Program-made: the position numbers and the translations under genes | Part shown: one piece after another, positions 2,534 to 7,996 of the stretch | How positions within the stretch are numbered: the stretch's first letter is position 1 | How the letters are laid out: every line of letters begins with the position of its first letter | Source of the DNA: an uncultured SAR116 cluster alpha proteobacterium | Lineage (GTDB): Bacteria > Pseudomonadota > Alphaproteobacteria > Puniceispirillales > Puniceispirillaceae | Direction: 5' to 3' | Assembly (NCBI GenBank): GCA_902520575.1 | Contig: CABYOG010000037.1 | Location: 1 to 8,971, forward strand | Length of the DNA: 8,971 nt | Notes under the pieces: generated by a model | What the model was told of the DNA's origin: nothing | The model's input: only the letters and a program-made list of their open reading frames with translations | Database searches by the model: none

Positions 2534-2843
2534 TTCTCACGGTCCTCGTTGTTGCTAGCTCGAAAAGCGGTCAAACGAATTAATGAGCGGTGCTAGTCGA
2601 TGTATTGAACTTAAATCTAAAATTTTATTAGTTTCTCGTGAGTGTGTTTTTTTGGGAACGTAATTTTTCTGGGTAAAAAAAACAAGGTTTTTTTCTTCGA
2701 TGAGCCTCGATCAGACTTGCGGACTTGCAAATGGTTCATTTCATCGTGACTTGTTTGTTTAAAAGTAAGTCCACCTCTATTCCGTCGAATAATCAAATTG
2801 ATACCATAAATTATTTCTATATCTATCGAACTGTTAAAATCAT
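2534..2843. other. long spacer upstream of the glycosyltransferase, no supported gene
   Basis: No recognisable gene. It contains A/T tracts, including AAAAAAAC/GTTTTTTT arms (2676-2683 and 2687-2694), a short AT-only inverted repeat too weak to call a terminator. A minus-strand open frame (2617-2931) runs through it, but it has no ribosome site at its TTG, no recognisable domain and a lysine-rich end produced by the A/T tracts. It presumably holds the glycosyltransferase promoter, but no convincing -35/-10 pair is seen. Confidence 0.5.
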
Positions 2844-2863: not shown

Positions 2864-2998
2864 ATGTGTTTCCGTATAGAAGCTGTCTCTCCTGACCAAG
2901 TGTTTGGAAATTTGTTGACCAAGGAACCCAAGGCAACACGACTGTTGATTAGCCCTTATTATCTTACCTCCCATCCGATGCACAACATGACAACATAA
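2864..2998 (+). CDS. possible small protein, 44 residues, unknown
   Basis: Open frame ATG to TAA, beginning MCFRIEAVSPDQVFGNLL and ending HPMHNMTT. No family recognised, no signal peptide, no membrane segment. Support is the very strong ribosome site just upstream plus mixed, protein-like composition; the long spacing from the site and the shortness argue against it. The stop codon and last codons lie inside the first copy of the palindromic repeat (ACAACATAA), so the repeat may have supplied the end of the frame. No other coding frame on either strand is clearly better here. Confidence 0.3.
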   Translation: MCFRIEAVSPDQVFGNLLTKEPKATRLLISPYYLTSHPMHNMTT

Positions 2999-3063
2999 TA
3001 CCTACGCACCCCCTATGGCTCATGCGTGGGGTGGGTCACATGATGTGTAATCATGTCTAACGC
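2990..3063 (+). repeat. dispersed palindromic repeat, copy R1
   Basis: First of three copies. The core has a perfect stem CACCCC (3007-3012) with GGGGTG (3028-3033); the 15-base loop contains ATG-GCT-CAT. It aligns with R2 over about 74 bases (shared blocks ACATAA, CGCACCCCCTATGGC, TACATGAT or CACATGAT, TCATGT) and with the reverse complement of R3 from ACAACATAATACC through GGGGTGGGT. It lies about 85 bp downstream of the minus-strand secreted-protein gene. It could be a REP-type or MITE-like element, or act in 3'-end formation. No run of T follows the stem, so it is not a classical intrinsic terminator. Confidence 0.75.
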
Positions 3064-4087: not shown

Positions 4088-4477
4088 ATGATTACAAATG
4101 GTGTAATAATACTGATTATGTTTGGAAATTTCTTCTATGCTTATCGCTGCATTTTTCAAACTCAAAGTTATATACAGCAATATGGATTTGGTGAGGGTAG
4201 CGCAATAATGACTAGGCTCGTCGGAACTTTTGCGGCTGGTTTTGGCGTTGTCCTGATCATTGCGTTATTAACCACAATCAAAGGGGGATGGCTGCTTTTC
4301 ACTTATGGTTTTATTCAAGCTACTATAGGCGCAATCGTCTGTTACCAAACGATAAATAGCCATTGGGGAATGGTAGAAGGTTTGAAAACTTCGCCTGAAG
4401 GATATATTGCACCCGGAGTAATTGCTGGTTTAAACTTAGTTGTGCTCGTTACAGGAAGAGAATTGCTGTTTTTGTAA
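4088..4477 (+). CDS. four-helix small integral membrane protein, unknown
   Basis: A 129-residue protein with four predicted membrane helices at about residues 4-22, 43-63, 67-87 and 107-125, and little soluble sequence. The longest loop (88-106) contains SHWGMVEGLKTSPEG. No catalytic motif is visible and no family is recognised with confidence; it resembles in layout the many small four-helix inner-membrane proteins of unknown function. Start choice: ATG 4088 has TGAGGA about 8 bases upstream. A GTG at 4073 in the same frame overlaps that ribosome site and is less likely. It stands alone on the plus strand with divergent mini-ORFs upstream. No terminator is seen after the stop. Confidence 0.72.
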   Translation: MITNGVIILIMFGNFFYAYRCIFQTQSYIQQYGFGEGSAIMTRLVGTFAAGFGVVLIIALLTTIKGGWLLFTYGFIQATIGAIVCYQTINSHWGMVEGLKTSPEGYIAPGVIAGLNLVVLVTGRELLFL

Positions 4478-4486
4478 CTCATCAGT

Positions 4487-4926
4487 CTAAGAGATTATCC
4501 AATCATTGTTAACATTCTCTGGTGCGAAGCTGATTAGACTGGCTTTAGCGCCATCATCTGTCTTGATATGCACATAAAATATCTTCTCAAACTCTTCATG
4601 CATCACATTCACCAACTCGCTGTAAAACCCACGTATGATGAGTACATGAGTCGGACTGATAGTAAGCTGACTTGTGAGTATAGGTTAAAATCTTCTTCTC
4701 TCTCTCTTAGCTGCTGGTGAATGCCGACACAGGTAAACATTTTATTCTGCAAAAGAGGATCATTTTCAATTAATGTGGCGTCTTTATCGTGATTTCGGTG
4801 AAGCCGACCAAAATACTGAGTTTGATGATCATGAATATCAGGATCAACCTCAATCACGTTTTCGGTATAGGAGTCTTGATTTAATTCTACCCCTCTTATA
4901 GCTTGAACAAGAACTCTAAAACTAAA
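4487..4926 (-). pseudogene. probable frameshifted gene remnant, unknown family
   Basis: Two overlapping minus-strand frames with coding-like codon use (many G- or A-first codons). The upstream frame is open from 4926 to 4609 and includes FRVLVQAIRGVELNQDSY and FGRLHRNHDKDATLIENDP. Its first start codon, GTG 4857, has no ribosome site. The downstream frame is open from 4684 to the TAG at 4487 and reads THVLIIRGFYSELVN, then YVHIKTDDGAKASLISF, ending FAPENVNNDWIIS. The 3' frame looks like a genuine protein C terminus but lacks a good start. A single frameshift between about 4610 and 4684, next to a GA-rich run, would join them into a protein of about 140 residues. Alternatives are two unrelated small genes, a sequencing error, or noise: the plus strand also shows short open frames here. 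Confidence 0.4.
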
Positions 4927-4954
4927 TTAATCTATATCACTTCATTCTAGTCTT

Positions 4955-4984
4955 TTGACAAAACTAATTTTTTGTCGTTATCTT
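4955..4984 (+). promoter_or_regulatory. sigma-70-like promoter for the cysteine-rich peptide
   Basis: A perfect -35 TTGACA (4955-4960), an 18-base spacer and a fair -10 TATCTT (4979-4984, four of six matches). Transcription would start near 4990, leaving a leader of about 20 bases before the ATG at 5012. Confidence 0.45.
4957..4976. promoter_or_regulatory. inverted repeat inside the promoter spacer, possible operator
   Basis: GACAAAA (4957-4963) and TTTTGTC (4970-4976) are perfect inverted arms separated by six bases. They overlap the -35 box and fill the spacer before the -10. That is the usual place for a repressor or MerR-type activator site. Which regulator, if any, binds is unknown. Confidence 0.35.
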
Positions 4985-5011
4985 TAAGGCTGGTTAAAAA
5001 TGGAGTTTACC

Positions 5012-5152
5012 ATGACAGATTCAGAGGACATTTGCTGCGCAAACACTTGCTGCGCAGACGGATGTTGCAGCGATGATTGCGCTGACAACTGCGAGGCTTC
5101 ATGCTGCAACGATGGGTGCTGTAATGAATATTGCAATGATAACTGTTGCTGA
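5012..5152 (+). CDS. cysteine-rich acidic peptide with regular C/CC spacing
   Basis: A 46-residue peptide, ATG to TGA, with 15 cysteines (33%), 11 acidic residues and no lysine or arginine. Cysteines occur singly or as pairs at 8/9, 13/14, 18/19, 23, 27, 31/32, 36/37, 41 and 45/46, and exactly three residues separate every consecutive block. The intervening residues are mostly Asp, Asn, Ala and Gly. There is no signal peptide. A ribosome site GGAG (5002-5005) lies six bases before ATG 5012; an in-frame ATG at 5000 would add MEFT and has its own AAGG site. A promoter and palindrome lie just upstream. The composition suggests a metallothionein-like metal-binding peptide or a thiol-rich precursor, but the strict repeat fits no family I recognise. 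The antisense frame, rich in Gln, Ser and Leu, is a shadow of the TGC/TGT repeats. Confidence 0.7.
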   Translation: MTDSEDICCANTCCADGCCSDDCADNCEASCCNDGCCNEYCNDNCC

Positions 5153-5265
5153 AGCGAAAAACTCATGGTGGATAATTTTTCCGGAGCCCTTGCTCAAAGA
5201 TTAACTGATAAAGAATTTACAATGAGATAATTTTACCCAAATGGTTGTTTTGGGAGAGCTTAGAA

Positions 5266-5583
5266 ATGGCAGAAATAGTAATTATTGGACACTTTAGATA
5301 TAAAAATGGAAAAATTATGGGGGTGGGTCATGATTGGGCCGAAGAGAACGCTGACCTAACATGGATCAAGGGCTTAACAAAAGTTGACACTTTTCACATA
5401 GCGCCAGACAAAGGCATGGCGATATACTTTTTTAAGTCAACGGAGCAGGCGAAACAATCGCTTCCAAGACTAAAAGAATTCTTTGCTGGTTATTCTGGGA
5501 TGTTTGAGTGCAGGGTCAATTTTGAATTAGGTGCATTCAATGCGACTCTGAGTGAAAAGTTAACTTCCCAAGCCGGTGGATAA
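5266..5583 (+). CDS. small cytosolic protein, 105 residues, unknown
   Basis: No signal peptide and no membrane helix. Alternating strands and helices (AEIVIIGHFRY, then DKGMAIYFFKSTEQAKQSLPRL, then a strand with MFECRVNFELG) look like an alpha/beta ferredoxin-like or dimeric alpha-beta-barrel fold, but this is an impression from pattern only. There is one cysteine (C82). ATG 5266 is chosen because GGGAG (5252-5256) lies nine bases upstream; the TTG at 5245 would place that site inside the gene. It follows the cysteine-rich peptide by 113 bp on the same strand, so co-transcription is possible. Repeat R2 begins about 30 bp after its stop. Confidence 0.68.
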   Translation: MAEIVIIGHFRYKNGKIMGVGHDWAEENADLTWIKGLTKVDTFHIAPDKGMAIYFFKSTEQAKQSLPRLKEFFAGYSGMFECRVNFELGAFNATLSEKLTSQAGG

Positions 5584-5615
5584 TTTAAGACTTCTACCCC
5601 CGTCCATTACACACC

Positions 5616-5691
5616 CCATATACATAACACCTGCGCACCCCCTATGGCCTATGCATGGGGAGGGTTACATGATATGTACTCATGTTAAATG
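5616..5691 (+). repeat. dispersed palindromic repeat, copy R2
   Basis: Same orientation as R1. It shares CGCACCCCCTATGGC (5634-5648), then ATGCATGGGG and GGGTTACATGAT. The inner CCCC/GGGG arms surround a loop of ATG/CAT words; outer arms CATATACATAA and TTACATGATATG are imperfect inverted repeats. It lies just downstream of the 105-residue gene. Immediately after it, TAAGTGAC occurs twice (5698-5705 and 5711-5718) with a 13-base period. Confidence 0.75.
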
Positions 5692-6019
5692 CATAGTTAA
5701 GTGACACATGTAAGTGACTATTCATAAGGGTTATAAATACACCTAAATGCTTATCCATAGATTTTTGGGAGTAGCACTCTCAGTGATACACTTACTCTGT
5801 ACTGATAACGGTAAGCATTTTCTGATGTATAAACTGAGGTACATTTCGTGCCTATTGACAGTGAAGGCAGAAAACATAACCTATTGATAAGTCTTACATA
5901 GAGATGCAGCTTGGTGCATGGCTAGAGCATTTAACCTCTCCACCAGCACCATTCTTTCCATCAAATGATGTGTATCTCATTGAATTGTAAGCATGTGCTA
6001 TGTTTGCAGGAGATGAGTA
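5692..6019. other. spacer without a supported gene
   Basis: Between repeat R2 and the 73-residue gene. It holds the 13-base tandem TAAGTGAC pair, a long-range inverted pair AATGCTTA (5746-5753) with TAAGCATT (5812-5819), and the strong hairpin at 5912-5951. A 46-codon plus-strand open frame (5747-5887) has no ribosome site and is not called. Confidence 0.5.
5912..5951 (+). other. strong interrupted hairpin, possible structured RNA or terminator
   Basis: TGGTGC (5912-5917) pairs with GCACCA (5946-5951), TGG (5919-5921) with CCA (5943-5945), and AGAG (5924-5927) with CTCT (5936-5939). The eight-base loop is CATTTAAC: 13 pairs with small internal bulges. ATTCTTTCC follows, a weak T-rich tail. 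Words such as GGCTAGAGCA and CTCTCCACCA resemble tRNA D-arm and 3'-end sequence, but no complete cloverleaf can be drawn. It could be a terminator, a leader structure for the gene at 6020, or a tRNA-derived remnant. Confidence 0.4.
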
Positions 6020-6241
6020 GTGGAGTTTCTGCTTCTATGGGTGTTATCAGGAAATTTTGTGGATAGTGGTCTTCGCTATGAGGATGCTGGTAGTTGTTAT
6101 GCTGAAGCGCAAAACACAGGCATGGAGATGAGAGAAATAGGAATGCCGCCACCAAATTTTACATGTGTTCCTGTAGCTGAAGGTAAAAACCTCAAGTTAG
6201 TAATTCCTGCCGCTCCACGCTCTTCATTTCCATTCAATTAG
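6020..6241 (+). CDS. small protein with hydrophobic N terminus, 73 residues, unknown
   Basis: It starts at GTG 6020, supported by AGGAGA (6009-6014) six bases upstream, a strong site. The N terminus MEFLLLWVLSG is short and hydrophobic. The body has the pattern EDAGSCYAEAQ (21-31), then FTCVPV (47-52): two cysteines (C26, C49) about 23 residues apart, followed by a loose C-terminal tail. Short proteins with a hydrophobic start, a C-x2-A-type helix and a final F-x-C-x-P strand are common uncharacterised genes in proteobacteria and phages (general impression, not a named family). It lies 92 bp before the amidotransferase on the same strand. Confidence 0.6.
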   Translation: MEFLLLWVLSGNFVDSGLRYEDAGSCYAEAQNTGMEMREIGMPPPNFTCVPVAEGKNLKLVIPAAPRSSFPFN

Positions 6242-6333
6242 GTAAAGGCTTTAGTCAACCAATCTTCGAGCTTGGAAAAGGAAACTGGCTATTGACGCAC
6301 TAGTGGCCCATTTAAAAGAAGAAATAAGTAACG

Positions 6334-7197
6334 ATGAAATCAGTAGATGAATCCGGTAAAAATATCCTAGTTGTTGAGGGCAACCATGAAGGGCTCGTTA
6401 CACAGTGCAACGACGGCAAACTAGTCGGGGCGGCAGAGCGTTATGCCGCGGTTCTCCAAGGTCTAGAAAAAAATATGCAAATTACAATTACCCGCCCGCA
6501 TTTTTCAAATGACCCTGCCCCTCCTGTTCATTGGCAAGATATAGATGGAGTGGTATTTACAGGTTCTGGCGTCTATTGGTCAGCAGACGAAGATGAGGCA
6601 GCGCCTGCCCGAAAAATAATGGAAGCAGCTTTTAAAAGCAGCAAGCCTGTTTTTGGGTCATGCTATGGCATGCAGTTGGGGGTTGCTGTATTGGGTGGGC
6701 GAATTTGGGCCAATCCATTAGGTCCAGAAATCGCTATAGCCCGCGATATTCAGATAAATGACACTGGTGAAAAACATGCATTATATAAAAATAAACCAAC
6801 CCTATTCGACGCTTTATGTATGCACCGTGATGAAGTGCAGCATACAGGGCATGCGGTAGATATCTTATCTGGAAATTCGCATTGTGCCATACAGGCTGTG
6901 GCGGCCAAGGCATCGGATATCCGGTTTTGGGGAGTGCAATATCATCCTGAATTGCATTTTAGTGATATTGCGAAATGTCTTGAACGTTCTGATTTTGTGG
7001 ATATTTTTGAAGCGCCATCCGCTATTAGGTTAAATGCTCCGGCAGGGCTTAGCAGGGAAGAAATCATCAATGATTTTTATCACCTAAATGAAGATAAGAA
7101 TAGAGCGGCATTAAAAGAGCGTTATAATCTTAGCCAAACGGTTTTCAAAAGGTCGGTACATGAGTGTGAGCTTTCCAACTGGCTAGACAGTTTTTAA
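6334..7197 (+). CDS. class I glutamine amidotransferase-like protein
   Basis: A 287-residue cytosolic protein of the GATase1 fold. The nucleophile elbow is GSCYGMQ (108-114) with catalytic C110. The His/Glu partners are in WGVQYHPE (H204, E206), so the triad is intact. FTGSGVYW (75-82) matches the oxyanion-loop strand, and MHRDEV (163-168) matches the H-x-D-x-V segment of GMP-synthase-like amidotransferases. The ~75-residue C-terminal extension after YHPE is longer than in stand-alone GATases. Such enzymes release ammonia from glutamine or hydrolyse gamma-glutamyl bonds. No synthase domain is fused and none is next door, so its acceptor is unknown. The ribosome site before ATG 6334 is weak (an AAGAAG run about 11-15 bases upstream). 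The SOUL gene follows 36 bp later, probably in one operon. Confidence 0.9.
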   Translation: MKSVDESGKNILVVEGNHEGLVTQCNDGKLVGAAERYAAVLQGLEKNMQITITRPHFSNDPAPPVHWQDIDGVVFTGSGVYWSADEDEAAPARKIMEAAFKSSKPVFGSCYGMQLGVAVLGGRIWANPLGPEIAIARDIQINDTGEKHALYKNKPTLFDALCMHRDEVQHTGHAVDILSGNSHCAIQAVAAKASDIRFWGVQYHPELHFSDIAKCLERSDFVDIFEAPSAIRLNAPAGLSREEIINDFYHLNEDKNRAALKERYNLSQTVFKRSVHECELSNWLDSF

Positions 7198-7233
7198 AAT
7201 ATTATAAAATGAGAAACTATATGGAAAGACAAT

Positions 7234-7851
7234 ATGGTGGAGCGGAATAACCTAATCCGAGGTGGCATTGTTTTATTTGCTTTCTTTTCCTACATAACTG
7301 TATCTGTTCCAGCCATGTCTTATAAAGAGCCAAACTTCACAATCATCAAAAAGTCTCATGTTTATGAGGTCAGACGCTATGAGAGGCGCACAGTAGCAGA
7401 AGTGACTCATGGTGACGAAGATAGCGGGTTCCGGGTCCTGTTTGATTATATATCTGGGGCAAATAAAGACATTCAAGAAATCCAAATGACAGTGCCAGTT
7501 ACTCAATCCAAAGAAATTGATATGACTGCACCAGTCACTCAATCAGAAAACAATGGCCAGATGGTAATGAGGTTCTTTTTGCCAAGTCGGTATTCAAAGC
7601 AAAATGCTCCAAAGCCAACTGATAAACGAGTTCAGATAATTGACCTGCCAAAGGAGTATTTTGCTGTTATTTCATATTCCGGCTTTGCCTCTGACAGCAA
7701 CTTTATAAAACACCATGAAGAGTTAAAAGCTGCCATGGAGAAAGACGGCTTGGTTACAATAGGACCACCTTTGAAAGCAACTTTTAACCCTCCATTCACC
7801 CCACCTTTTCTTAGGCGCAACGAGGCAATGTACCCCCTAAAGTGGAACTAA
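7234..7851 (+). CDS. SOUL family heme-binding protein, exported or membrane-anchored
   Basis: A 205-residue protein. Residues 9-28 form a hydrophobic segment ending VSVPAMS, so it is either exported to the periplasm or anchored there. The SOUL/HBP domain follows: YEVRRYERRTVAEV (44-57), the helix GFRVLFDYISGAN (65-77), and the MTAPVT motif (97-102), duplicated in degenerate form as MTVPVT (85-90). The diagnostic C-terminal end is FNPPFTPPFLRRNEAMYPL (184-202). Family members bind heme or tetrapyrroles; bacterial roles are poorly defined. Start ATG 7234 has GGAAAG about six bases upstream; GTG 7237 is an alternative. It sits 36 bp after the amidotransferase stop, and repeat R3 follows within 10 bp of its own stop. 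Confidence 0.9.
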   Translation: MVERNNLIRGGIVLFAFFSYITVSVPAMSYKEPNFTIIKKSHVYEVRRYERRTVAEVTHGDEDSGFRVLFDYISGANKDIQEIQMTVPVTQSKEIDMTAPVTQSENNGQMVMRFFLPSRYSKQNAPKPTDKRVQIIDLPKEYFAVISYSGFASDSNFIKHHEELKAAMEKDGLVTIGPPLKATFNPPFTPPFLRRNEAMYPLKWN

Positions 7852-7857
7852 CGCGCC

Positions 7858-7914
7858 ATATATATAATACCCACCCCATGCATGGGCCAGGGGGGGTGTG
7901 GGTATTATGTTGTT
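7858..7914 (-). repeat. dispersed palindromic repeat, copy R3, inverted; possible bidirectional terminator
   Basis: This is the most symmetrical copy. ATAATACCCAC (7864-7874) and GTGGGTATTAT (7898-7908) form a perfect 11-bp stem, extended by CCC/GGG across a one-base bulge. Its reverse complement aligns with R1 from ACAACATAATACC to CCCATGCATGGGGTGGGT, so it is inverted relative to R1 and R2. It lies between convergent genes, seven bases after the SOUL stop and about 80 before the DsrE-like stop. That placement fits a two-way transcription end, although the flanks have only short A/T runs. Confidence 0.75.
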
Positions 7915-7996
7915 AATGACTGCACTATGCCTCACATTCAAAATGGGAGACCTGTGATTTCACAAAAGTATTTCTTTTGAGAAAACTTTTTGTTCG

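Follow-up and report, generated by a model that had tools for sequence, protein, structure and literature searches.

A conserved cysteine-block peptide of SAR116 bacteria, probably a new and metallothionein-like family

Introduction

Is a very short open reading frame packed with regularly spaced cysteines a gene, and if so, what would its product do? This question is raised by a contig of 8,971 nucleotides from an uncultured SAR116 cluster alphaproteobacterium (the window, meaning that whole stretch). Few families of bacterial metallothionein are known to us. SmtA carries CxC and CxxC motifs with histidine ligands among the cysteine motifs, while MymT, the copper metallothionein of mycobacteria, is a short, thiol-rich protein for which no large fold is expected, and which holds a Cu(I) cluster and guards against copper. 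A preliminary description of the frame, made from the letters of the window, proposed a real gene distinct from the SmtA/BmtA type that might bind metal or be the precursor of a modified peptide.

Results

The reading frame and its upstream signals

Translation of positions 5012-5152 on the forward strand yields a peptide of 46 residues, MTDSEDICCANTCCADGCCSDDCADNCEASCCNDGCCNEYCNDNCC, which contains 15 cysteines, 11 acidic residues and one tyrosine, and no lysine, arginine or histidine. Inspection of the spacing reveals nine blocks of single or paired cysteines separated by eight gaps, all of three residues, with the first CC at residue 8; the composition and spacing first described are thus confirmed. 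An antisense frame of 60 residues overlaps the cysteine frame. Structure prediction of the peptide gave no fold (mean pLDDT 57). The assignment of a metallothionein-like peptide to this frame draws on translation, homologues, codon selection and alignment.

The closest relatives lie in three other genomes of the SAR116 order (Puniceispirillales): G067 (80% identity, E 6.5e-16), G102 (76%) and G082 (71%). Alignment of these four sequences, referred to here as subtype I, brings the -35 region, the ribosome site, the ATG at 5012 and the cysteine codons into register. The ribosome-binding site, GGAG at 5002-5005 (+), precedes the ATG by six bases and is invariant across the four aligned genes; the ATG at 5000, also in frame, is not kept. 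A promoter-like site at 4955-4984 (+) consists of TTGACA (4955-4960) and TATCTT (4979-4984) across a spacer of 18 bases, a 10/12 match, and its -35 element is retained in G067 and G102 and is one base off in G082. Four such sites occur in the window versus 3.6 expected from shuffles, so the promoter-like site alone proves nothing. That is to say, the ribosome site and promoter-like signal first offered in support of a gene are both conserved, but the promoter match by itself occurs at shuffle frequency. The block conserved with G067 spans 4940-5161 (+) at 81% over 222 bases and takes in promoter, ribosome site and reading frame; window positions 4950-5180 are 76% identical to G102. In G067, a block resembling window positions 4474-4531 directly precedes the match to 4940-5161, where the window carries about 400 extra bases.

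Selection on the gene

Comparison of the window gene with those of G067, G102 and G082, a set found by similarity, gave dN values of 0.08, 0.13 and 0.16 and dS values of 1.45, saturated and 3.18. The resulting dN/dS was 0.06 against G067 and 0.05 against G082, with dS saturated for G102; the remaining three subtype I pairs gave 0.24, 0.12 and 0.12. At the cysteine columns, the same three comparisons contain 5, 8 and 4 synonymous and 0, 0 and 1 non-synonymous changes. For 22 distinct genes of a second spacing subtype (subtype II, described below), the median dN/dS was 0.13 over 189 usable pairs, and the cysteine codons showed 1071 synonymous and 13 non-synonymous changes, a count biased toward conservation because this set was chosen by its cysteine pattern. 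The cysteines are conserved, and the gene is under purifying selection. The preliminary description had staked the gene on finding a homologous frame in relatives that keeps its cysteines through synonymous codons, and such frames were found. Comparative evidence thus indicates that the 46-residue frame is a real, conserved gene, a chance frame being ruled out by homologues of the cysteine pattern in tens of genomes together with low dN/dS.

Family distribution and spacing subtypes

The peptide itself, used as the query, matched 35 of the 136 SAR116-order genomes at E<=10, and a profile of 24 rows recovered members in 29 of the 136 at E<=0.001. The remaining 107 genomes yielded no copy, an absence that may reflect incomplete assemblies. 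Across the class, the same profile was positive in 4 of 385 drawn genomes, of which three belong to a single further order. A second profile (23 rows) found members in 17 of 32 genomes of that second order and in 1 of 13 genomes in the family of G240, the fourth class-wide positive, and in none of 398 genomes drawn from the phylum, a draw without a known positive. The search of relatives first proposed thus has its answer in homologues from two orders.

The spacing of 34 sequences was then tabulated (the window, L308-L336 and L341-L344; loci L337-L340, weak matches without the cysteine pattern, were left out). Every gap equals three in four sequences, namely those of subtype I, where the G082 copy is without the last cysteine. 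Gaps of 3,3,3,4,3,3,5 characterize subtype II (23 of 34), and the other seven sequences have other, shortened or broken spacing. A lysine follows the first CC in most subtype II members, so the lack of basic residues is not family-wide. Strict three-residue spacing without basic residues, as first described, accordingly holds for the window's subtype but not as a rule of the family. Net charge is negative in all 31 distinct sequences, which together hold 4 histidines and 16 aromatic residues in 1488. Some cysteine genes look degraded, with cysteines missing or the pattern interrupted: L333 and L334, which are the second copies carried by G041 and G102, and L373, where the pattern is gone after the third CC.

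A search of a protein database with the 24-row profile returned 89 proteins, 57 with subtype II spacing and none with that of subtype I, in line with the earlier claim of a real gene missed by length cut-offs. Gene catalogues tend to miss this gene. In 74 of the 89 proteins, more than 14 residues lie ahead of the first CC-x3-CC; these long N-termini are probably over-long start calls, and rows of the second profile with a full N-terminus have the first CC at residue 8 to 11.

Comparison with known families

Searched as a single sequence, the window peptide gave no match to Pfam or NCBIfam families (threshold E<=1) or to PDB chains (threshold E<=10), and in a set of 5.8 billion proteins nothing shared three words with it. 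Among 24 family members, none matched PF02069 (Metallothio_Pro), the SmtA/BmtA metallothionein family, and the other Pfam families gave two chance-level matches (E 0.5 and 0.76); NCBIfam and PDB searches with the family returned nothing significant. PF02069 was likewise found in 0 of 136 SAR116-order genomes, with Synechococcus elongatus positive as the control. These results uphold the earlier view that the peptide is distinct from SmtA/BmtA. Like SmtA/BmtA, the family is cysteine-rich at about 50 residues; unlike it, the family is not recognized by PF02069, sets its C/CC blocks 3-5 residues apart and is almost without histidine, where the histidine ligands of SmtA/BmtA have no counterpart at all in the window peptide. 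Of the features of metallothioneins as a class, small size, high cysteine content, few aromatics and conserved cysteines under purifying selection are present. The family also resembles MymT in being short and thiol-rich, a likeness of description and not of alignment. The cysteine family is probably new and probably metallothionein-like in action.

A tblastn search of phages and plasmids with the peptide gave no match, although the low-complexity filter may conceal some. Matches to CC-x3-CC in viral contigs (at least 120 stretches) were set aside, being mostly antisense-like or repeat strings among the matches listed. Matches at 2589-2741 (-) of IMG/VR contig L080 lie in an 861-residue open frame with 141 cysteines in CC-rich repeats. 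Searches of the open-licence PMC literature found neither the peptide nor a SAR116 metallothionein described, and the term metallothionein has no occurrence in the available text of PMC12262181.

Gene neighbourhoods

Flanking genes vary between SAR116 loci, with no frame of at least 60 residues common to every locus. The subtype I copy of G102 adjoins a plastocyanin-like gene. Small frames with a ribbon-like C..C...C...W..C..C pattern lie directly beside several subtype II genes, for example L313:4964-5209 (+) and L313:5403-5696 (-); some end in YGGTWKS, and none has a significant Pfam match. Several subtype II copies sit among small four-cysteine, ribbon-like frames, for which raw regular-expression matches occur in 18 of 50 sources.

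Within the window, a protein of about 100 residues at about 5272-5583 (+) has relatives in 55 of 136 SAR116-order genomes and in two SAR116 cluster bacterium records; it has no Pfam or NCBIfam match and no relatives in a viral scan. Its family falls inside the fetched cysteine-gene locus in four cases (the window, L317, L322 and L329), and a cysteine-family frame is absent from 32 loci (L121-L152) around its relatives, reaching about 1.5 kb past the match for most. The window's amidotransferase (6334-7197) shares 96% identity with its counterpart in G073, 74% with that in G069 and 73% with that in G070, all of the SAR116 order, and window positions 6047-7854 are 94.6% identical to G073, which places the window in that order. 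The matching contig of G073 stops short of the cysteine gene, and a profile search of that genome found no family member at E<=0.001. A dispersed intergenic repeat occupies 5585-6025, with pieces at about 2992-3056 and 7869-7915; matches of 73-94% occur at several places in G073, in G066, G069, G070 and G125, and at other loci of the order. The repeat has no Rfam match, and Rfam and tRNA scans of the whole window returned nothing.

Of the 17 copies in the second order, 11 are followed on the same strand by a Fur-family gene, at 104-194 bases in nine loci and at 723 and 1801 in two. The best NCBIfam match of this Fur-family protein is Zur, at 98.5 bits under a cut-off of 167, and its PDB matches are 7dh7, a Fur-family entry, and 4mtd, which is named as a zinc uptake regulation protein. 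Genes nearby encode a DUF3299 protein in 11 loci, an FtsX permease in 10 loci and an ABC ATPase in 9 loci. This make-up corresponds, respectively, to zrgE, zrgB and zrgC of Vibrio parahaemolyticus as described in the available text of PMC9817125, so that ATPase, permease, DUF3299 protein and Zur-like regulator recall the Zur-controlled Zrg locus of Vibrio. Unlike the second-order locus, the zrg operon as given there is without a cysteine peptide. DUF2796 (ZrgA) was not recognized among the few second-order neighbours scanned. Because a 93-residue protein on the other side of the cysteine gene is also conserved (12 loci), inherited synteny accounts for part of the Zur neighbourhood; seen in one order, this neighbourhood appears to be largely inherited synteny. 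A search for Zur boxes found the great majority of upstream regions to be no better than shuffles, where one of 16 second-order loci reached 1%, with the Vibrio-type box only. In the SAR116 order, a Zur query matched 95 of 136 genomes; because these matches mix Fur-family paralogues, no co-occurrence of Zur and the cysteine gene is claimed there.

Discussion

What, then, would such a peptide do? We think it rather likely that it represents an undescribed metallothionein-like family, a small cytosolic thiolate protein whose most likely role is to buffer or store zinc. A metal-thiolate buffer is suggested by the thiol content, the selection on the cysteines, the acidic spacers, the absence of a leader and the Zur/Zrg neighbourhood. 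Single and paired cysteines, with acidic or small residues between them, would wrap a metal-thiolate cluster, most likely of a few Zn(II) ions (four or five, as a guess based on the number of ligands). The peptide would be expressed from its own promoter and ribosome site, would buffer or store zinc and could also accept Cd(II) or Cu(I). In the second order it would form the storage arm of zinc control, ahead of a Zur-like regulator and Zrg-type uptake genes, and would act as BmtA does in marine Synechococcus. In strain WH8102 of that genus, bmtA is activated by Zur (the available text of PMC9337993), and the second-order copies may be under similar Zur control. Metal binding, zinc as the metal, the cytosolic location and the regulation are all features we infer, and among metals we would rank zinc first and copper second. 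Several results weigh against this reading: the largely negative search for Vibrio-type Zur boxes, the score of the Zur-like protein under its cut-off, a Zur neighbourhood confined to one order and largely inherited, SAR116 loci with no neighbour common to them all, the plastocyanin-like gene next to the G102 copy, a structure prediction without a fold, and 107 SAR116-order genomes in which no copy was found. In its favour, besides the points named above, BmtA-type metallothionein was found in none of the 136 SAR116-order genomes.

A copper(I) metallothionein, that is, a nearly histidine-free thiolate peptide with a Cu(I) cluster that protects against copper as MymT does, is unlikely yet the foremost of the alternatives. 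The scarcity of histidine and the plastocyanin-like gene beside the G102 copy are consistent with it, but among the neighbours scanned a copper-related gene occurs at that one locus, and where a metal link recurs, in the second order, it points to Zur and Zrg-type genes. A thiol or redox buffer, or a carrier of iron-sulfur clusters in which metal binding is secondary, would account for the very high thiol content and is improbable, given a neighbourhood of metal regulator and zinc transport genes and no redox partner common to the loci. That the product is the precursor of a modified peptide, as first suggested, or of a secreted, disulfide-rich one is more improbable again: it is indeed short, cysteine-rich and regularly spaced, but with the first CC at residue 8 no space is left for a leader, the loci do not all have any one neighbour in common, and no peptide-modifying enzyme was found among the subset of neighbours scanned. 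Finally, a spurious frame, whether it stems from repeat DNA or shadows a Gln-rich frame on the antisense strand, is scarcely credible despite the overlapping antisense frame and the mostly antisense-like or repeat nature of the viral matches listed, since start, ribosome site, frame and cysteines are kept between genomes at low dN/dS.

Beyond the zinc-buffer reading, we tentatively propose, at somewhat less than even confidence, a fuller picture in which a hitherto undescribed, nearly histidine-free metallothionein family with two spacing subtypes would buffer zinc in SAR116 and in a second small-genome alphaproteobacterial order, where it would replace BmtA, be tied to Zur and Zrg in the second order, and have been overlooked at a length of about 46-50 residues. 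SAR116 isolates are available, according to the accessible text of PMC12262181, and the function of the peptide is therefore testable. The peptide may offer a compact all-thiolate cluster scaffold, and the family a marker for ocean transcriptomes and proteomes. If it is a conserved metallothionein in a ubiquitous surface-ocean clade, it would show trace-metal buffering by small-genome heterotrophs.
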